Source: Oscillospiraceae bacterium (GTDB lineage Bacteria > Bacillota > Clostridia > Oscillospirales > UBA644). Taken from it: a DNA stretch of 64,000 bases. The DNA lies in contig CACZQB010000003.1 in NCBI GenBank assembly GCA_902783255.1, forward strand, positions 62,001-126,000, read 5' to 3'. Positions 13,060 through 21,249 of the stretch are shown one piece after another. Under the pieces are notes generated by a model that saw only the letters and a program-made list of their open reading frames with translations, was not told the origin of the DNA and ran no database searches. The position numbers and the translations under genes were made by a program. Numbering within the stretch: position 1 is the first letter of the stretch; every line of letters starts with the position of its first letter.

Positions 13060-13923
13060 ATGAAAATCGCAGTACCTTATGAAAACGGAAATGTTTTTCA
13101 GCATTTCGGACACAGCGAAAAATTCAAAATTTACGACGTTGAAAACGGCAGCATCATTCGTGCCGAAATCGTTGACACCAACGGTAAGGGCCACAGCGCC
13201 CTCGCCACCTTTCTTGCCGATAACGGAGTAACCGCACTTATATGCGGCGGTATAGGCGACGGGGCGAAAACTGCTCTTCAAGAAGCGGGGATCGATATTT
13301 TTGCAGGAGCAGACGGAAGCGCCGACGAAGCTGTAAACGCGTTTATCCTCGGACAGCTTGAATATTCCGAAGGCGAATGCTGCGACCATCACTGCCACGA
13401 TGACGACTGTGACTGCGGCGATCACGACTGCGACTGCGGTCACTGCCATGGAGACGACGGCTGCGACTGCGGCTGTGAAATGCCTCATTTTGAAGGAAAA
13501 AACGTAGGAAAAAAAGTACGCGCGCATTACAGAGGAACATTTAACGACGGCACACAGTTTGATTCGTCATACGATCGCGGCGAACCTCTCGAATTCATAT
13601 GCGGAGCAGGACAGATGATCTACGGTTTTGATGCCGCCGTTGCAAATATGGAAGTGGGACAGATTTCGGATATCCATCTCATGCCCTCCGAGGCATACGG
13701 TGAATATGATCCCGATGCTGTTTTCACGGTAGAGATCGCTCAGATGCCCGGATCCGAAAACGTAACGGCAGGACAGCACGTATATCTTTATGATCATCAC
13801 GGACATCCGTTCCCCGTAACAGTTACGGCAAAGGACGAAAAAACCGTTACTTTTGACGCAAACCATGAAATGGCGGGAAAAGAGCTGAATTTCCGTATAG
13901 AACTGGTTGAAGTTGATGACTGA
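13060..13923 (+). CDS. Fusion: NifX/NifB-type domain, His-Cys-Asp-rich linker, SlyD-type prolyl isomerase
   Basis: A 287-residue three-part protein. Residues 1-104 match the dinitrogenase iron-molybdenum cofactor-binding fold (MKIAVPYENGNVFQHFGHSE; later ALICGGIGDGAKTAL). Residues 107-139 contain 11 Cys, 6 His and 11 Asp, a dense metal-binding tract. Residues from about 146 are an FKBP of the SlyD type with its inserted chaperone flap (KVRAHYRGTFNDGTQFDSSY; EAYGEYDPDAVF). In E. coli SlyD the metal-rich tract is at the C-terminus and serves nickel delivery; here it lies between two domains. A role in metal handling or metal-cluster protein folding is inferred. Acylphosphatase overlaps its end. 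Confidence 0.85.
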   Translation: MKIAVPYENGNVFQHFGHSEKFKIYDVENGSIIRAEIVDTNGKGHSALATFLADNGVTALICGGIGDGAKTALQEAGIDIFAGADGSADEAVNAFILGQLEYSEGECCDHHCHDDDCDCGDHDCDCGHCHGDDGCDCGCEMPHFEGKNVGKKVRAHYRGTFNDGTQFDSSYDRGEPLEFICGAGQMIYGFDAAVANMEVGQISDIHLMPSEAYGEYDPDAVFTVEIAQMPGSENVTAGQHVYLYDHHGHPFPVTVTAKDEKTVTFDANHEMAGKELNFRIELVEVDD

Positions 13924-14191
13924 TGCCGTCAGGCTGCACATACTGTTTTATGGCAGAGTGCAGGGCGTGGGATTTCGCTACAGGGCGTGTAATGCCGCGT
14001 TGAAATACGGCTGCACGGGCTGGGTCCGCAATAATATTGACGGATCCGTGGAAATGGAAATTCAGGGCAAAAAATATGATATAGACAGCGTAGTTTCCGC
14101 TATAGAAAAAGGAAGATACGTGCATATCGACAATATAACCGTAAAGGAAATACCGGTTACGGCAAAGGAATACGGTTTCAATGAAAAATAA
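13916..14191 (+). CDS. acyP: Acylphosphatase
   Basis: A 91-residue protein with the family signature GRVQGVGFRYR (catalytic Arg) and GWVRNNIDGSVE (catalytic Asn). It hydrolyses acyl phosphates in the cytoplasm. The ATG at 13916 lies inside the end of the SlyD fusion gene, giving an 8-bp overlap and likely coupling. An earlier TTG is in frame but less likely. Confidence 0.9.
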   Translation: MTDAVRLHILFYGRVQGVGFRYRACNAALKYGCTGWVRNNIDGSVEMEIQGKKYDIDSVVSAIEKGRYVHIDNITVKEIPVTAKEYGFNEK

Positions 14192-14238: not shown

Positions 14239-14910
14239 TTACAGTTGATTCTGCGTTTCGGTATACGGCAGGAGCGCGATCTCAAGGTTGCCGTTTTTTG
14301 TGCGAAGCTCATCTATAAAAGCTTTTTCTTCTGCGGGGTTTTTCAGCTGAACTTTATATGATAAGCGGAACATGCTGCCCATTCCGGTCGTTTTTACTCC
14401 GGCATTTTCGTATTTTTTCAGATAGTGCGCAAAAATATCGTCAAATGTTCCCGTATATTCAAGCGATTCGGGGATCGTGATCCTTAAAAGCTGGTCTTCA
14501 GCCATACTTTTATGTTCAAAAAGCGGAACAAGGCTGAGAAGAAGGAAAAGTACCGAAAGAGCAAGAAGGATGACTATACCGTATCCTATATATCCCATAC
14601 CGAATGCAATGCCGGAACCCATCGCTACAAGGATCGCCGCGATTTCGTCCGCGCTGCCCTGAGCGGAACGGAAGCGAATAAGGCTGAAAGCGCCGCCTAT
14701 AGCAACGCCAGCGCCGATATTGCCGTTGACGAATGTTATTACGGCAGCAACTACAAAAGGAATAAGCGCCGTAACGATGAAAAAACGCTTTGTGGAGCGG
14801 ACGCGAAAGCTCATGATCCACGAATACAAAAAACCCGTGACTATGGACACCGCAGCCATTATAAAGAATTCCGACGGAGCTACCGCGGAAGAATAAATTG
14901 AATCAAACAT
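14239..14910 (-). CDS. DUF4956 membrane protein
   Basis: A 223-residue protein with several membrane helices in the first 130 residues, including the conserved GAGVAIGGAFSLIRFRSAQG, and a soluble C-terminal domain of about 90 residues. DUF4956 genes are repeatedly found next to VTC-domain genes in bacteria, as here. It is the last gene of the operon that begins at 19121. AAGGAG precedes the ATG. Confidence 0.85.
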   Translation of the reverse strand: MFDSIYSSAVAPSEFFIMAAVSIVTGFLYSWIMSFRVRSTKRFFIVTALIPFVVAAVITFVNGNIGAGVAIGGAFSLIRFRSAQGSADEIAAILVAMGSGIAFGMGYIGYGIVILLALSVLFLLLSLVPLFEHKSMAEDQLLRITIPESLEYTGTFDDIFAHYLKKYENAGVKTTGMGSMFRLSYKVQLKNPAEEKAFIDELRTKNGNLEIALLPYTETQNQL

Positions 14911-14930
14911 ATAATAATCTCCTTCTTTAT

Positions 14931-15629
14931 TTACATTTTACGCGTATCGAGAAGCTGCTGTCTGTATGCTTCGCCGTATTTTGAGAAACTTGCTTTTCTT
15001 ATGTTGCCGCAGGAAATGATATCAACAAGCCAGAGCGGCATTGCTTCCTGTACCTTGACCTCGAGTATGGTCCAGCCTTCGTCAAGAAGCGAAGTGCCGT
15101 CCATCGATTTTGTCAGAGTGAGGTCGCTTGTTCTGTATCGCGGATTTTCGTCTATCGTAAGTCTGAGGTCTCCGCCCGGTTCGAAATATGCCACGCGGTC
15201 ATAAATAATAAGGCAGGCCGGCACAAGAACCTTATAAAAATCACGGAATGTTGTTATCTCCCTGTTGATCTGACCGGGCGAGCAGATATCACCGTCACCC
15301 GAAAAGAATTTATGAACAAGAGGGATCGTTGTTTCAACACGGCGTTTATATACAATGCCGTATGCTTTACGCTTCAGTTCAAGAAAAACCGGTGAAGATT
15401 CGGTCGCGAGCCCGTAAGAACGCAGACGGATCTTTTCTTTGAAAAGAGGTTTTTCAACGCTTGTGCGTATGAGCTGAAAAGTCGGGGTATCATAATACAG
15501 AGATGCGATCGACGTTTTGCCGTAATCGTCAGCCTGCATATGACCTTTCAGACGTTCTCTGAAATACGCCGTCTGCTCGGGTGAAAGCAGATATTTCAGT
15601 TCATACCGTTTCATCACGGTTATAGCCAA
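14931..15629 (-). CDS. VTC-domain polyphosphate polymerase-like protein
   Basis: A 232-residue VTC domain (the catalytic tunnel domain of yeast Vtc4), recognisable from RYELKYLLSPEQ, EKIRLRSYG, FLELKRKAYGIVYKRRVETT and LEVKVQEAMPLW. The many Lys/Arg residues of the tunnel bind polyphosphate and nucleotide. It probably makes polyphosphate from ATP at the membrane together with DUF4956. The start is uncertain: TTG at 15629 has a GGGGTGA site at suitable distance, while ATG at 15614 is the alternative. Confidence 0.85.
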   Translation of the reverse strand: MAITVMKRYELKYLLSPEQTAYFRERLKGHMQADDYGKTSIASLYYDTPTFQLIRTSVEKPLFKEKIRLRSYGLATESSPVFLELKRKAYGIVYKRRVETTIPLVHKFFSGDGDICSPGQINREITTFRDFYKVLVPACLIIYDRVAYFEPGGDLRLTIDENPRYRTSDLTLTKSMDGTSLLDEGWTILEVKVQEAMPLWLVDIISCGNIRKASFSKYGEAYRQQLLDTRKM

Positions 15630-15644
15630 AATATCACCCCGCTG

Positions 15645-16856
15645 TCACATGAATATGCGCAGAGTAAATATTCCGTTCGCAACATTTGCCGAAATACGCC
15701 CTCTCAGCGCCTTGACCGTATCTTTCACATACGAAAGGCCCAGTCCAGTTCCGTCGGAATTTTCAAGAGTTGTAAAGCGGTCAAATATCTGATCCGCAGG
15801 ACCGTCCGGAAGAGCCGCATCGTTGCTTGTTTCAAGAACGACATAGCCGTTTTCGTTTTTAAGAGTAAAAGATACTTTATGCAGAGCGAATTTTACTGCG
15901 TTATCTATAAGTTCGACGATCATTTTGTTGATCGAGTCTGGGTCAGCCGAAACTGTAACATCGCCATCGATATCGGTATGCAATTCAAGCCCTTGTGATG
16001 AAAATCTTTCGGCAGCATCGTCAAGAGCTGCGCTGAGATATTCCGAAACGGGCACTTTTTCCTGTTGCAGACCGTCTTCTTCGAATACTCCGATCTTCCC
16101 GAGTTTTTCAACAAGCTCGTTCATTTTGGCAAGCTGACGGCGGGTCGAGCGTGTCTGATCATCAGGTCCGTATTTTCTTTCCGCAAGTTCCGTATTGCCG
16201 CTTATCACGGTAAGCGGAACGCGAAATTCTTTATTTGCGTTTTTAATAAAGTTTTTCTGCTTTCTGTCTGCTTCTTCAAGAGGCGAATATATTTTTCTGC
16301 CGATACTGAATAAAAGAAGCCAGCTTGCGGCAAGAACTATTATTTCTCCGACAGCGGAGATGATCAGAATTCTGTATGACGGCAAAAGTTCCCGTCCCTG
16401 ATCGATCACTGTAACATATGTTGCGCCGTTGCGTTTGTAAACTCTGTAACGGTATGTATATTTCGTCCATCCGGTTTTTTTGCCGAGAAGGCTTTCCGCC
16501 CAGGAAACTGCCTCGCTCTCGGTGACAGCGGAAATATGGAACGCAACGGTTTCCGCATTGTTTTCTTTACCGGTAAAAGCAACGGTAAAATATCTCAGAG
16601 ATTTGTTGAGTTCCGGCGAATCGGGGCCCATCGGTCCCATGCCGAAAGCGCCTTTCTGCTGAAAACCCGTATTGCCGGATAAGGCGTCGCCCTTTTCAAA
16701 CGTTCCCTGTCTTTCGGCAAGCATCTGAGTTATTTCATCCGCATCAGATGACGCCATGGTAAAGTTTACGCCGTTGATCACGGCAAGAAGAACGGTAAGA
16801 AGAACAAATATCGTAAGCAACGAATAACATCTGAATTTTTTTTCCGCTTTATTCAT
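15645..16856 (-). CDS. Degenerate sensor histidine kinase (phospho-acceptor His replaced by Lys)
   Basis: About 403 residues. A membrane helix near residues 15-35, an extracytoplasmic region, a second helix near 165-185, then a kinase core. In the dimerisation helix the usual SHELKTPL motif reads NKEFRVPL, so Lys209 replaces the phospho-acceptor His. The ATP-binding half is better kept: N box VELIDNAVKF and G box DGTGLGLS. It may sense and signal without autophosphorylation on His, or act as a partner of the intact kinase at 19248. The ATG at 16856 overlaps the upstream regulator stop by 8 bp. Confidence 0.85.
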   Translation of the reverse strand: MNKAEKKFRCYSLLTIFVLLTVLLAVINGVNFTMASSDADEITQMLAERQGTFEKGDALSGNTGFQQKGAFGMGPMGPDSPELNKSLRYFTVAFTGKENNAETVAFHISAVTESEAVSWAESLLGKKTGWTKYTYRYRVYKRNGATYVTVIDQGRELLPSYRILIISAVGEIIVLAASWLLLFSIGRKIYSPLEEADRKQKNFIKNANKEFRVPLTVISGNTELAERKYGPDDQTRSTRRQLAKMNELVEKLGKIGVFEEDGLQQEKVPVSEYLSAALDDAAERFSSQGLELHTDIDGDVTVSADPDSINKMIVELIDNAVKFALHKVSFTLKNENGYVVLETSNDAALPDGPADQIFDRFTTLENSDGTGLGLSYVKDTVKALRGRISANVANGIFTLRIFM

Positions 16857-17445
16857 TTCCCGCCACCGCAGCAAATCCTTTCTTCGAAATATATTTTATT
16901 CTTGTTTTGGCACCTGATCCTGCAAGTTTTGCGTTCAGCGATGATATATATACTTTTTCTTCTGCCAGAAGCGGTTTTCCTTCTGTTACAGAAATAAAAA
17001 CATCCGTTTCTTCGGCAGTGACCGCCGGGCCGTTTTTCAAACGGAACGCCGAAACGTCTATTTCGGCGCCTGCCGCCTTAACGGTATCGACCGACATTGC
17101 TTTTTTCATTACGTTATCTATAACTGCCCTTATTTTTCCGGGATCGAATGGAAACGGAAGAAATGATGTCGGAAGGAGCTCCTCGTTGAGGATCTTAGGC
17201 GTGACCGATTCGTATATCAGAACGATAACGGGAATATTTTTTTTCTTTATTCGCGTCAATACTTCCTTATACTCGATACGGGGGATATTTCTGTCAAGAA
17301 TAACGATATCATATTTTTCTTTCGCCAGCGATGAGATCACCTGCGTTCCGTCAAAAACCGTTACCGTTTCCCATCCGTCGGGCTCAAACAGTTTGCCGAA
17401 GCATTCAAGCAGGTCCCTGTCTGACGATGCAAAAAGCATTCGCAT
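16849..17445 (-). CDS. Degenerate OmpR-like response regulator
   Basis: A 198-residue protein with a receiver-like domain (residues 1-115) and a short winged-helix-like tail. Asp51 (VILDRNIP) is kept, but the acidic pocket reads SSD instead of EDE or DDD, the conserved Thr/Ser region reads LIYES, and the switch Lys of YLTKPF is replaced in FLPFPF. The DNA-binding part is shorter than in OmpR proteins, with KTRIKYISKKGFAAV as a possible wing. Phosphorylation-independent function is expected. AAAGGTG precedes the ATG. It is paired with the degenerate kinase. Confidence 0.8.
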   Translation of the reverse strand: MRMLFASSDRDLLECFGKLFEPDGWETVTVFDGTQVISSLAKEKYDIVILDRNIPRIEYKEVLTRIKKKNIPVIVLIYESVTPKILNEELLPTSFLPFPFDPGKIRAVIDNVMKKAMSVDTVKAAGAEIDVSAFRLKNGPAVTAEETDVFISVTEGKPLLAEEKVYISSLNAKLAGSGAKTRIKYISKKGFAAVAGNE

Positions 17446-17471
17446 ATCATTTCACCTTTCGTTTTCAGTTA

Positions 17472-19121
17472 TTAAGACACCGAAGCATCGCTGTAACATG
17501 AAGTGGAAGAGTAGCCGTTTGAATTTGTAAATGTATATTTCGTTCCGTCGACCGTTACGGTATGACTTCCGGAAGAGTGAAGGGAAAGAGAAACCTGCTT
17601 TACGTTTCCTCCTGTGCTTACGCGGCCGTAGCCGAGAACTATCAGCGTTCCCGAAGTGATATTTACCGAACCGTCCGCATCTATTGCGGCAGCCATATCG
17701 CTGCCCGGACCTCTTGTTATCACAACGCCGCCGGTCTGATTATAAGTGCCGTTGCTGTCTATTCCGTCCGTATCTCCGTTCGGAGAAACAGTCACGTCAA
17801 GGTAGCCTCCGGTAACGTTGATCTGTGGCGTACTGTTGCCTTTGCAGGCGTTTACACCGTCGTCGTTTGCCGCAACATACGTTTTGCCTCCCGAAACATT
17901 GATAATGTTTGCTTCAAGACCTTCGTATGCGCTGTCTATATTTATTTCTCCTCCGGAAATATTCAGAGTACCGTCTGCGTGAATACCGTCTGCGCCGATG
18001 ACCGTCTGCTGTCCGCCCCATCTTCCCGGACCCATTCTTCCGCCCGCGGTTTTGTTTTCGGGAGCGTACACATTCATCGTTACCGTTCCTCCGGAGATAT
18101 TGATCGTTCCGAGTCCGCTTTGTCCGTCATCAAAAGCCGTTCCGTAATCCGCGTGCAGTCCGTCGTCATAAGTCTGAAGAGTAATGCTTCCCGCAAGGAT
18201 GTTTATTTCGTTCTGGACCTTCACGCCTTTGTATGAAGTTGTTGCCGCATCAGATGACGTATATCCGCTATATGAGCCGGTATAGACGGTTACTGCAGGT
18301 TCGCTTTCGCCTGCACTCATTTCAAAGCTGTGAGCCGCCTGAAAAGCATCTCCGGCAGCGTATACGGTAACAGATCCGCCGCAGATGATTATATCGCCTC
18401 TTGTAACGCCTTTTTTGCTGACATCCGTGTTTTCCGTTTTTATTCCGTCGCCGCCCGTTGATATCGCTACGACTTCACCGCTTGTAACGGTGACTGAGTC
18501 ATCGCCTTTAAGTGCGGTAGACGGAGCGGTAACTTTAAGTGAAAGATTTTGTATCTCGAGGTCCTTTGTTGTGTGGATACCGTTGTTGTATACCGAATTT
18601 ACAACAAGCGTTCCTTTGCCCTTCATTTTGAGGTCGCATTTTGCGTAAATCGCGCCTTTGCCGAGTGTGTCGTCTGTCAAAGAAGAGGAGCGTGTATCGT
18701 TGATAACATTTTCCGTATTCTTTTTTGCGGAAATCTCAACTTTGTCTGCATTGAGGATCTTTATTGGAGAATCTGTACCGCAGCTTATCGTTGCGCCGGA
18801 AAGCTCAATGACCACTTCGTCGTCATCGCCCGCATCAACAACGATCTGTCCTTCTAAAAATCCTTCCAATGCGTATGTTCCGGCGGTCGTAAGAGTGTAA
18901 ACATTGCCTGAATTTTCAAATGCTCCGTCGGCTGTTGTTACAGAGAAAGCCGATGTCGTTTCTTTGGCAGAAATATCTGTATCAGTGACCGCTTCGGCTG
19001 TTTGAGCAGCTGATTCTGTGACGCTCTCTGTTTGTTGTGTATCCGTATCTGTTTTTGAAGCGCAGCCGGCAAAAGATACCGCAATAAAAATTGCCAGAAG
19101 CAAAGCAGTTATTTTTTTCAT
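17472..19121 (-). CDS. Carbohydrate-binding domain lipoprotein (Cthe_2159/DUF4353-like)
   Basis: A 549-residue lipoprotein (lipobox SFAGC, Cys20). After a Thr/Ser-rich linker comes a long series of beta-strand repeats with recurring NISGG, GDGI, DGIHAD and DDGV motifs. This is the pattern of the carbohydrate-binding, calcium-dependent beta-helix family typified by C. thermocellum Cthe_2159. It should sit on the outer face of the membrane and bind acidic polysaccharide. It is the first gene of the operon with the degenerate pair, VTC and DUF4956. Confidence 0.85.
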   Translation of the reverse strand: MKKITALLLAIFIAVSFAGCASKTDTDTQQTESVTESAAQTAEAVTDTDISAKETTSAFSVTTADGAFENSGNVYTLTTAGTYALEGFLEGQIVVDAGDDDEVVIELSGATISCGTDSPIKILNADKVEISAKKNTENVINDTRSSSLTDDTLGKGAIYAKCDLKMKGKGTLVVNSVYNNGIHTTKDLEIQNLSLKVTAPSTALKGDDSVTVTSGEVVAISTGGDGIKTENTDVSKKGVTRGDIIICGGSVTVYAAGDAFQAAHSFEMSAGESEPAVTVYTGSYSGYTSSDAATTSYKGVKVQNEINILAGSITLQTYDDGLHADYGTAFDDGQSGLGTINISGGTVTMNVYAPENKTAGGRMGPGRWGGQQTVIGADGIHADGTLNISGGEINIDSAYEGLEANIINVSGGKTYVAANDDGVNACKGNSTPQINVTGGYLDVTVSPNGDTDGIDSNGTYNQTGGVVITRGPGSDMAAAIDADGSVNITSGTLIVLGYGRVSTGGNVKQVSLSLHSSGSHTVTVDGTKYTFTNSNGYSSTSCYSDASVS

Positions 19122-19202: not shown

Positions 19203-19236
19203 ATTATATAACACATAAATTGAAAAAAGATTGAAT
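19203..19236 (-). promoter_or_regulatory. Promoter with tandem response-regulator box upstream of the carbohydrate-binding lipoprotein
   Basis: On the plus strand ATTGAAA (19219-19225) and ATTGAAT (19230-19236) are direct repeats 11 bp apart. On the minus strand these read as TTCAAT units, and the second ends exactly 10 bp before the -10 TATAAT (19203-19208). No good -35 is present. This is how OmpR-family activators commonly bind. Confidence 0.65.
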
Positions 19237-19247
19237 GATTTAAATTT

Positions 19248-20519
19248 TTATTTTTTCGGGATCAGAACCGTGAATACCGCTTTGCCGTTTTTGTAGTCTG
19301 CGCGTATCTGACCGCCATGCGCAGAGGCAACTGCATGCGCTATGGAAAGACCGAGACCGTAATGAGAGTCTTCGCCTTTTCTTGCTTCATCGGTTCTGTA
19401 AAACCTGTCAAAAATATGCGCAAGCTGTTCATCGTCGAGCGGATCTGACTCGTTTGCGACCGAAAGACATGCGAAATGACGTTCGCTTTTAAGCGAAAGA
19501 TATATTACGGTGCCGGTTCCGTGAGATAAAGCGTTGTCAAGAAGAACGGATATAAGTTGGCGCAGCTGATTCTGACTGCCTTCGACAAAAATACCGTTTT
19601 CCGTTTCGCTGATTATCGTTTTTCCTTTTTCGAACGCAAGACTTTCAAACGGCAAGGCTTCGCCATTTACAAGCTTTGAAAAATCAAGCGTTTCTTTCGG
19701 TATTTTTTCGTTTTCCGCTTTTGAAAGCATAAGGAGCTGTTTTATAAGGTCGCTCATTCTTGAGTTTTCGTAATCTATATTATCGAGCCATTCGCTATCT
19801 CCGATCTCTCTTCTTAACAGTTCGCTGTTTGCGGAAATTACAGCGACAGGTGTTTTAAGCTCGTGCCCCGCATCAGAAACAAACCGTTTTTGACGAATGT
19901 CGTTTTCTTCAAGAGGACGGACGATTATTCTCGCAACGATTACTGATATTGCAAGAAGAACGGCAACGGCAGCCGCGCCGATCATAAGCATCTGTTTGAA
20001 TAAAAGCTCAAGATTCTTGTCGCCTATCGTGCCGTCTATCATTGCTACAAGAGTATAGCCGTCTTTGTCTGCAACACGGTAATATATACTCCCGTATGTG
20101 CCTGTTTCTTTTTTTCTTTCAAGCGCCGCCGACGCGATCTCAAGAAGCGTGTTTTCACTTTGAAGACCGTTATTGCCGTTATTTATCGAAATTATTTCTC
20201 CCGATTCGGAATAAGCCACGGAATAAAAAGTGGAAAGCCGGAATCCCGGTTCGTTTCTCATATGACCCTTTCCCTGCATCATACCGGGAAATTCCGAAAA
20301 CAAGTTGTCATGCTCCAAAGGAGGAGGATCCTCCTTGTCAAAATCCTCGCGTTGATTTTCAGGATCGTAAAGCCCGATATAGGTCATGAGCATTTCATCG
20401 TTTTCGTTCCGCATTGCCGCCCTGCTTGAAAGGTAGATCGTGCTCAGCGTTACTATCATAAGAGCAAGCAGTGATAATACTACAGTAAAAACGATTTTAA
20501 CTTTTGTTTTACCGAACAT
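19248..20519 (-). CDS. Sensor histidine kinase (intact)
   Basis: A 423-residue kinase. Membrane helices lie near residues 8-30 and 178-200, flanking an extracytoplasmic domain. The dimerisation motif DAGHELKTPVAV contains His219. The N box (LLDNALSHG), the F box (DRFYRTDE) and the G box (GLGLSIAHA) are intact. It should phosphorylate the regulator encoded just upstream; the genes overlap by 11 bp. Confidence 0.9.
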   Translation of the reverse strand: MFGKTKVKIVFTVVLSLLALMIVTLSTIYLSSRAAMRNENDEMLMTYIGLYDPENQREDFDKEDPPPLEHDNLFSEFPGMMQGKGHMRNEPGFRLSTFYSVAYSESGEIISINNGNNGLQSENTLLEIASAALERKKETGTYGSIYYRVADKDGYTLVAMIDGTIGDKNLELLFKQMLMIGAAAVAVLLAISVIVARIIVRPLEENDIRQKRFVSDAGHELKTPVAVISANSELLRREIGDSEWLDNIDYENSRMSDLIKQLLMLSKAENEKIPKETLDFSKLVNGEALPFESLAFEKGKTIISETENGIFVEGSQNQLRQLISVLLDNALSHGTGTVIYLSLKSERHFACLSVANESDPLDDEQLAHIFDRFYRTDEARKGEDSHYGLGLSIAHAVASAHGGQIRADYKNGKAVFTVLIPKK

Positions 20520-21192
20520 CGCGGCACCTCAGCTCGTAACCTATTCCTCGGACCGCTTTTATTTCGCATCGGGACTCCACAAAAGCGAGCTTTTTTCTGG
20601 CAAACGACATGTATACCTCTACATTGTTATATTCCGAATCGTTTTCATAACCCCATATTTTCAGGGCTATCTGTTCCCTGTTTAGAATTCTGTCGCTGTT
20701 GGCAATAAGATATTCAAGAATGCGGAGTTCTTTTTCTCCGAGCCTTACGCTCTGCCCGTTGTCGCAGCTGAGCACGGCATTTTTCAGGTCAAGCGTAATA
20801 TCCCCGTAAGAAAGACTGCCGTCGTTTGTAGGCAGGTTTCGTCTGGCAAGCGCACGCAGACGGGCAAGCAGCTCTTTCGTCATAAAAGGTTTTGTGAGAT
20901 AGTCGTCCGCTCCGCTGTCAAGGCCTTCCACTTTATCGTCAAGTTCACCTTTTGCGGTAAGCATAAGTATGGGCGTGCGAACACCTGCGGCACGCGTTTT
21001 TTTTGCAACGGAGTAACCGTTCATCCCAGGCATCATAACGTCAAGGACAATCAGGTCGTATATTCCGCTTTCCGCTTCGTAAAGAGCGTCTTCGCCGTTA
21101 TCTACGGATGCAACATCGTACCCTTCCTGACGCATTATTTCGCAAAGCGCACGATTCATTCTTTTTTCGTCTTCTGCAAGCAATACTTTCAT
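20509..21192 (-). CDS. OmpR-family response regulator (intact)
   Basis: A 227-residue regulator. The receiver has the acidic pair in LLAEDE, phospho-acceptor Asp51 (IVLDVMMPGM), LTAKG and DYLTKPF. The C-terminal winged helix is complete (GEKELRILEYLIANS; KAVRGIGYEL). It probably binds the TTTCAAT direct repeats found before its own gene and before the lipoprotein gene at 19121. Confidence 0.93.
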   Translation of the reverse strand: MKVLLAEDEKRMNRALCEIMRQEGYDVASVDNGEDALYEAESGIYDLIVLDVMMPGMNGYSVAKKTRAAGVRTPILMLTAKGELDDKVEGLDSGADDYLTKPFMTKELLARLRALARRNLPTNDGSLSYGDITLDLKNAVLSCDNGQSVRLGEKELRILEYLIANSDRILNREQIALKIWGYENDSEYNNVEVYMSFARKKLAFVESRCEIKAVRGIGYELRCRDVR

Positions 21193-21215: not shown

Positions 21216-21249
21216 AGAATACCATATGAAAATTGAAATCAGATTGAAA
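21216..21249 (-). promoter_or_regulatory. Promoter with tandem response-regulator box upstream of the intact two-component system
   Basis: ATTGAAA occurs at 21232-21238 and 21243-21249 (plus strand), an 11-bp period. On the minus strand the second unit ends 10 bp before TATTCT (21216-21221), the same geometry as at 19203-19236. Confidence 0.6.

Follow-up and report, generated by a model that had tools for sequence, protein, structure and literature searches.

A pseudo-histidine kinase and pseudo-receiver pair proposed to gate a putative VTC-DUF4956 polyphosphate polymerase in gut anaerobes

What does a two-component pair do when neither partner carries the residues for phosphotransfer, and what keeps it beside a putative polyphosphate polymerase? 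The question is raised by a 64,000-nucleotide stretch of Oscillospiraceae bacterium contig CACZQB010000003.1 (positions 62,001 to 126,000; hereafter the window), in which five tightly spaced genes on the minus strand (14239-19121) encode a Cthe_2159-type lipoprotein, a pseudo-receiver (pRR), a pseudo-histidine kinase (pHK), a VTC-domain protein and a DUF4956 protein. A preliminary description of this DNA had named all five, and Pfam scans together with the sequence located each of them at that place and on that strand. The unit had been drawn too small, as a canonical response regulator and kinase lie directly upstream of the lipoprotein operon on the same strand (19248-21192) and the functional unit comprises seven genes; nor is the pseudo-pair the operon's sole signalling system, since this adjoining normal two-component system has its own operator. 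We propose that pHK and pRR act together as a sensor unit that needs no phosphotransfer and would gate a VTC-DUF4956 polyphosphate polymerase, a reading of the sequence to which we give about an even chance. Loci are labelled L and genomes G throughout.

Loss of the phospho-acceptor His was constant among pHKs. The acceptor box of the window protein, NANKEFRVP, aligned with DAGHELKTP of the neighbouring normal kinase, which places Lys209 opposite the His as originally described; the residue number follows from the best start, an ATG at 16856 overlapping the pRR stop codon (ATGAATAA). Across 32 distinct pHKs the acceptor was never His (K 20, R 7, S 3, M 1, Q 1). We checked whether Lys209 itself is conserved and, as the position varies, rejected it as a conserved functional residue. 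A salt bridge from Lys or Arg at this site to Asp51 of the pRR is possible, but the two positions did not strictly covary, L044 and L099 having Lys together with Ser at the Asp51 position. The position of the phosphatase Thr, which a normal kinase requires for its usual phosphatase activity, was V, L or I in every pHK. From these replacements, pHK is predicted to have lost autophosphorylation as well as phosphatase activity of the usual kind. ATP-site motifs (N-box Asn, F-box core and GLGL) were present in all 32, and motifs of the outside sensor, such as GPMGP.SPE and VTVIDQGREL, were conserved. The protein has the HisKA/HATPase_c architecture, with HATPase_c over the Pfam cut-off, HisKA marginally under it, and the kinase part of the AlphaFold model matching structures of CpxA, HK853 and DivL.

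Corresponding losses were found in the pRR. The acidic pair ED of the normal regulator is SS in the window protein and was replaced in 32 of 32 distinct pRRs (S, A or V, then S, P or A), and the switch Lys position was Y, F or L in all of them, so that a receiver without switch Lys and acidic pocket, first described for the window alone, is a feature of the whole set; the Asp was retained in 29, including Asp51 in the window, and the Thr in 21. Taken together, the two proteins are predicted to be incapable of phosphate transfer. Although pRR is a receiver protein, as described, it is not a bare receiver, its C-terminal end being a cut-down OmpR-type DNA-binding domain. An intact OmpR-type winged helix-turn-helix with its recognition region was not found: the part around IWGYEN in the normal regulator was missing from every pRR, and 11 of the 32 had no C-terminal domain at all. 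The AlphaFold model of the window pRR showed a receiver and a reduced winged helix (predicted local distance difference test, pLDDT, 91), with the receiver fold superposing on the PmrA receiver 7m0s (Z 19.3, root-mean-square deviation 2.2, 119 residues) and RitR structures among the structural matches. The β1-α1 face, through which ordinary regulators dock on their kinase, was conserved while the α4-β5-α5 face was variable, a pattern that speaks for a pRR stably bound to pHK as a subunit rather than for a transcription factor.

We also assessed how far the pair extends beyond the window. A search with pRR identified unambiguous orthologues in four genomes, three congeneric and one from a different family, all with the same seven-gene order. 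When 394 genomes of the order were surveyed, DUF4956 proteins formed a tight subfamily (at least 71% identity) in 16 genomes, followed by a gap to below 50%; most members had pRR-pHK just upstream of VTC-DUF4956, L041 and L046 were without the pair, and the L036 contig ended too early. Scanning named genomes for pHK gave 27 pair loci (L076-L102) and the end of another (L103); the search patterns were taken from the N-terminus and made no selection for the residue at the His position. Record titles, where they name a source, indicate a ruminant gut origin (goat, sheep and yak, plus the RUG series of, as we take it, rumen genomes), with a few giving no host. The core of pRR, pHK, VTC and DUF4956 was contiguous and in this order at every locus long enough to show it, including L111 in a genome of another order, where pHK was 36% identical and had Lys at the acceptor position. 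Besides the L111 genome, a 348-genome sample of the phylum gave no match at E 1e-55 or better, and weaker matches of a class-wide search were rejected as pHKs, being ordinary kinases that keep the His. None of the pair's homologues with this gene order retained the His or the Lys. Because 32 distinct homologues, drawn from a number of independent assembly projects, share these losses, we rejected chance, a local mutation or an assembly error as the cause.

Most cassettes carried the canonical pair and the pseudo-pair at one locus. No normal pair was detected near the early-branching pair loci L043, L044, L045, L098, L099 and L111, some on short contigs; at several early-branching loci no lipoprotein relative was found upstream of pRR, and two had one downstream of DUF4956. 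These core-only loci suggest that the core came first and acquired the upstream lipoprotein gene and the normal pair afterwards. Individual loci contained further genes. An extra two-component pair, 41% and ~30% identical to the normal pair, lay between that pair and the lipoprotein gene in L078 (5725-7621), L088 (5523-7491) and L102 (3374-5270); a gene for an FMN-binding/4Fe-4S membrane protein and an ApbE gene lay between the normal kinase and lipoprotein genes in L042 (5800-8880); and a MgtC-family gene was inserted downstream of the normal kinase in L037 (5554-6315).

Ratios of nonsynonymous to synonymous substitution rates (dN/dS) between the window and its nearest relative (dS ~0.2) were lowest for DUF4956 (0.01) and VTC (0.03), followed by pHK (0.066), the normal regulator (0.07), the lipoprotein (0.08), the normal kinase (0.10) and pRR (0.17). 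The values reflect constraint rather than decay, and pHK is under strong purifying selection. In midpoint-rooted trees, all pHKs formed one clade on a long stem (support 100/100), which grouped with His-keeping kinases flanking VTC-DUF4956-Cthe_2159 loci in other Clostridia. The adjacent normal kinase fell into a different clade, and we therefore rejected pHK as a tandem copy of its neighbour. All pair-bearing loci likewise fell into one clade of the VTC+DUF4956 tree, again on a long stem with 100/100 support; because L041 and L046 branch within it, the pseudo-pair most likely arose once and was lost twice. pHKs were found solely beside this one VTC-DUF4956 subfamily. A pseudokinase and a pseudo-receiver evolving as a set, which had been put forward as unusual, is thus borne out, and the set is tied to a VTC-DUF4956 module whose charged VTC residues are intact.

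In that module, the VTC profile matched yeast Vtc4 (7.8e-8), and the 22 charged or motif positions checked, among them the tunnel Lys, Arg and Glu, were invariant across 21 homologues, so that VTC proteins lacking the tunnel Lys and Arg did not occur in this set. We infer that the cytosolic VTC protein and the membrane protein DUF4956 together make a polyphosphate polymerase. No SPX domain was found in any of the seven proteins by Pfam scan. Among 11 genomes of the pair clade, PPK1 was not found in 10 (G375 has it) and PPK2 in none, although these assemblies are incomplete and the absences uncertain; with PPK1 in one genome and PPK2 in none, VTC may be the main polyphosphate enzyme there.

Transcriptional control was assessed from a direct repeat, TTCAATCTNNTTTCAA, of two half-sites 11 bp apart that ends 11 nucleotides ahead of a −10-like element in the window; the copy preceding the lipoprotein operon, TTCAATCTTTTTTCAA, stands 11 nucleotides ahead of TATAAT. 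The repeat lies upstream of both the regulator and the lipoprotein gene in nearly every cassette and was not found in core-only loci at one mismatch or fewer. Exact copies in the 2-Mb genome were confined to these two sites, with two one-mismatch copies elsewhere versus one for the control, and the count at two mismatches within the window alone was not above chance. The case for an operator comes from the position and conservation of the boxes. In relatives from other cassettes the canonical regulator was 87-97% identical, and in the window it retains ED, D51, T79 and K101; the canonical kinase keeps its His in relatives. The normal pair probably runs transcription of both units, and the arrangement fits a dedicated regulator that would drive its own gene and the five-gene operon through the putative operator. 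Extra copies of the box occurred elsewhere in L041 (12688) and L102 (5290 and 11835); the L102 copies lie close to additional Cthe_2159-type genes, an indication that the regulon may be wider at that locus.

In the mechanism we propose, the seven genes would form a polyphosphate regulon, with the normal regulator and kinase activating their own genes and the operon through the shared operator. The pRR, keeping its kinase-docking face, would be permanently seated on pHK, and pHK would turn an outside signal, possibly with ATP binding, into a change of shape that might switch the VTC-DUF4956 complex on or off. Such a role would resemble that of the SPX domain of yeast VTC. The more specific proposal that the pair was converted jointly to purely allosteric signalling, with a permanent membrane complex gating VTC-DUF4956 directly in place of the eukaryotic SPX sensor, is tentative and falls somewhat short of an even chance. 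Direct, phosphate-free gating is favoured because the pair stays with VTC-DUF4956 rather than with the normal pair and because the docking face of pRR is conserved. Paired degeneration tied to VTC-DUF4956 is the part of the earlier interpretation that persists here; the surface-glycan signal that it had the lipoprotein pass to the pair is conjectural. Three observations weigh against gating by the pair: L041 and L046 lack it within the VTC-DUF4956 clade, so the pair is not essential for the enzyme; the AlphaFold model of pHK had low confidence (pLDDT 69.7), too weak for sensor interpretation; and a partial literature search found no report of polyphosphate synthesis by a bacterial VTC protein.

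The main competing explanation, which we regard as unlikely though the best placed of the alternatives, is that pHK and pRR act on the adjacent normal system, either through mixed dimers of pHK and the normal kinase or through competition by pRR for that kinase, and thereby tune transcription of the operon. The presence of both pairs at one locus in most cassettes would fit this, and there are precedents: DivL needs no catalysis to bind a phosphorylated regulator (PMC4211667), the ChrS variant is a pseudokinase that heterodimerises with HrrS (PMC9491836), and comparable models exist for CmrT (PMC12632262). However, the pseudo-pair is tied to VTC-DUF4956, early-branching cores had no normal pair detected nearby, and the normal kinase and pHK belong to different clades. 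Furthermore, no regulator in G296, G247 or G518 exceeded 46% identity to the canonical regulator, and G375 had one at 62% on another contig. It is rather improbable that the pair is a mere scaffold or stabiliser of VTC-DUF4956 through which no signal passes; such a role would agree with obligate linkage to these genes and with the lost catalytic residues, but a plain scaffold would have no need of the conserved outside sensor motifs and ATP-site motifs. Still less probable is a pRR that remains a transcription factor without phosphorylation, as other atypical regulators do, with pHK as its membrane anchor or switch: a reduced winged-helix end is kept by about two thirds of pRRs and is confidently modelled, but the recognition region is deleted in all 32, the whole domain is gone in 11, and the α4-β5-α5 face used by OmpR-type dimers is not conserved. 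Decay of an old two-component system to a remnant with no current role, which the faster evolution of pRR relative to its neighbours and the loss of the DNA-binding end in several lineages might suggest, is very improbable and was rejected by dN/dS, as reading frames are intact over several families and a second order and the pHK value, below that of the normal kinase, shows purifying selection over this distance.

Neither pseudo-kinases nor pseudo-receivers are new in themselves, with the His missing in 0.9% of HisKA domains and pseudo-receivers making up ~6% of bacterial receivers (PMC12632262). DivL of Caulobacter resembles pHK in having a HisKA-type fold, a substituted acceptor His and no remaining catalysis, and in being kept as a regulator; it differs in having Tyr, sensing the phosphorylated real regulator DivK and acting on the kinase CckA, whereas the partner receiver of pHK is itself dead and its genetic neighbour is an enzyme complex. 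RitR, CmrT, HP1043 and ChxR (PMC12632262) share with pRR a receiver fold without phosphorylation residues, but the pRR gene overlaps that of its own pseudokinase and its DNA-binding domain is mostly or wholly lost; of 20 characterised pseudo-receiver or atypical cases, two are non-orphan and most act through DNA (PMC12632262). Yeast Vtc4 (PDB 3g3q) has the same charged tunnel residues and a membrane protein alongside, whereas the window set has no SPX domain, DUF4956 is a different membrane protein, and the activity is a putative one. Clostridia loci L051, L054 and L056-L063 also have VTC-DUF4956-Cthe_2159 with a kinase and regulator adjoining, but their kinases keep the His where the box is readable and pRR-pHK is absent.

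CotH, a polyphosphate polymerase and DUF4956 have been described as accessory neighbours in Gram-positive Pel clusters (PMC7112168). These sets share a VTC-type gene and DUF4956 with the present locus, but have CotH and adjoin Pel genes; the seven-gene locus in the window instead encodes a Cthe_2159-type protein together with two two-component pairs. A second VTC-DUF4956 pair in the window's own genome, on a second contig (L035, 4581-9035), lies behind a 1044-residue CotH with lamin-tail domains, and no two-component relative was detected by this CotH-VTC-DUF4956 set in the fetched stretch.

A partial literature search found no report of an operon-encoded pair with both members devoid of phosphotransfer residues, nor of a conserved pair of this kind linked to a polyphosphate polymerase. 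How bacterial pseudo-receivers switch was called a mystery in a 2025 review (PMC12632262), and a selected pseudo-pair in more than 30 natural variants, in which partner and neighbouring enzyme stay the same, makes the question directly testable. Regulated production of polyphosphate by a VTC enzyme is also suggested by the locus, in gut anaerobes that are best represented in ruminants and in which, one exception aside, no polyphosphate kinase was found (11 genomes).

Table 1 Coordinates of the features of the seven-gene locus within the window.
Feature	Position	Strand	Evidence
Operator box TTCAATCTGATTTCAA, upstream of regulator gene	21233..21248	-	Exact match; position conserved in cassette relatives
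Canonical OmpR-type response regulator	20509..21192	-	Pfam Response_reg 4.1e-29, Trans_reg_C 2.7e-18
Canonical membrane histidine kinase, HELKTP box	19248..20519	-	Pfam HisKA 2.8e-14, HATPase_c 1e-16
Operator box TTCAATCTTTTTTCAA, upstream of lipoprotein operon	19220..19235	-	Exact match; position conserved in cassette relatives
Cthe_2159-type carbohydrate-binding lipoprotein	17472..19121	-	Pfam Cthe_2159 1.8e-64
pRR, pseudo-receiver with cut-down OmpR winged helix	16849..17445	-	Response_reg 5.3e-8
FLPFPF of pRR, Phe for switch Lys	17146..17163	-	Alignment with normal regulator (YLTKPF there)
pHK, membrane pseudo-histidine kinase	15645..16856	-	HATPase_c 4.6e-11, HisKA 5.4e-5 just under cut-off
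AAA codon of pHK Lys209, phospho-acceptor position	16230..16232	-	Sequence, alignment with normal kinase
VTC domain, putative polyphosphate polymerase, TTG start	14931..15629	-	Pfam VTC 3.2e-40
DUF4956 membrane protein, ~four hydrophobic segments	14239..14910	-	Pfam DUF4956 2.7e-9; hydropathy

The lipobox of the lipoprotein reads SFAGC in the sequence. On the plus strand beside the locus, a gene at 13060-13923 encodes a FeMo-cofactor (NifX-like) domain joined to an FKBP-type isomerase by a stretch rich in His, Cys and Asp, and an acylphosphatase gene (13907-14191, plus strand) lies next to this fusion gene.

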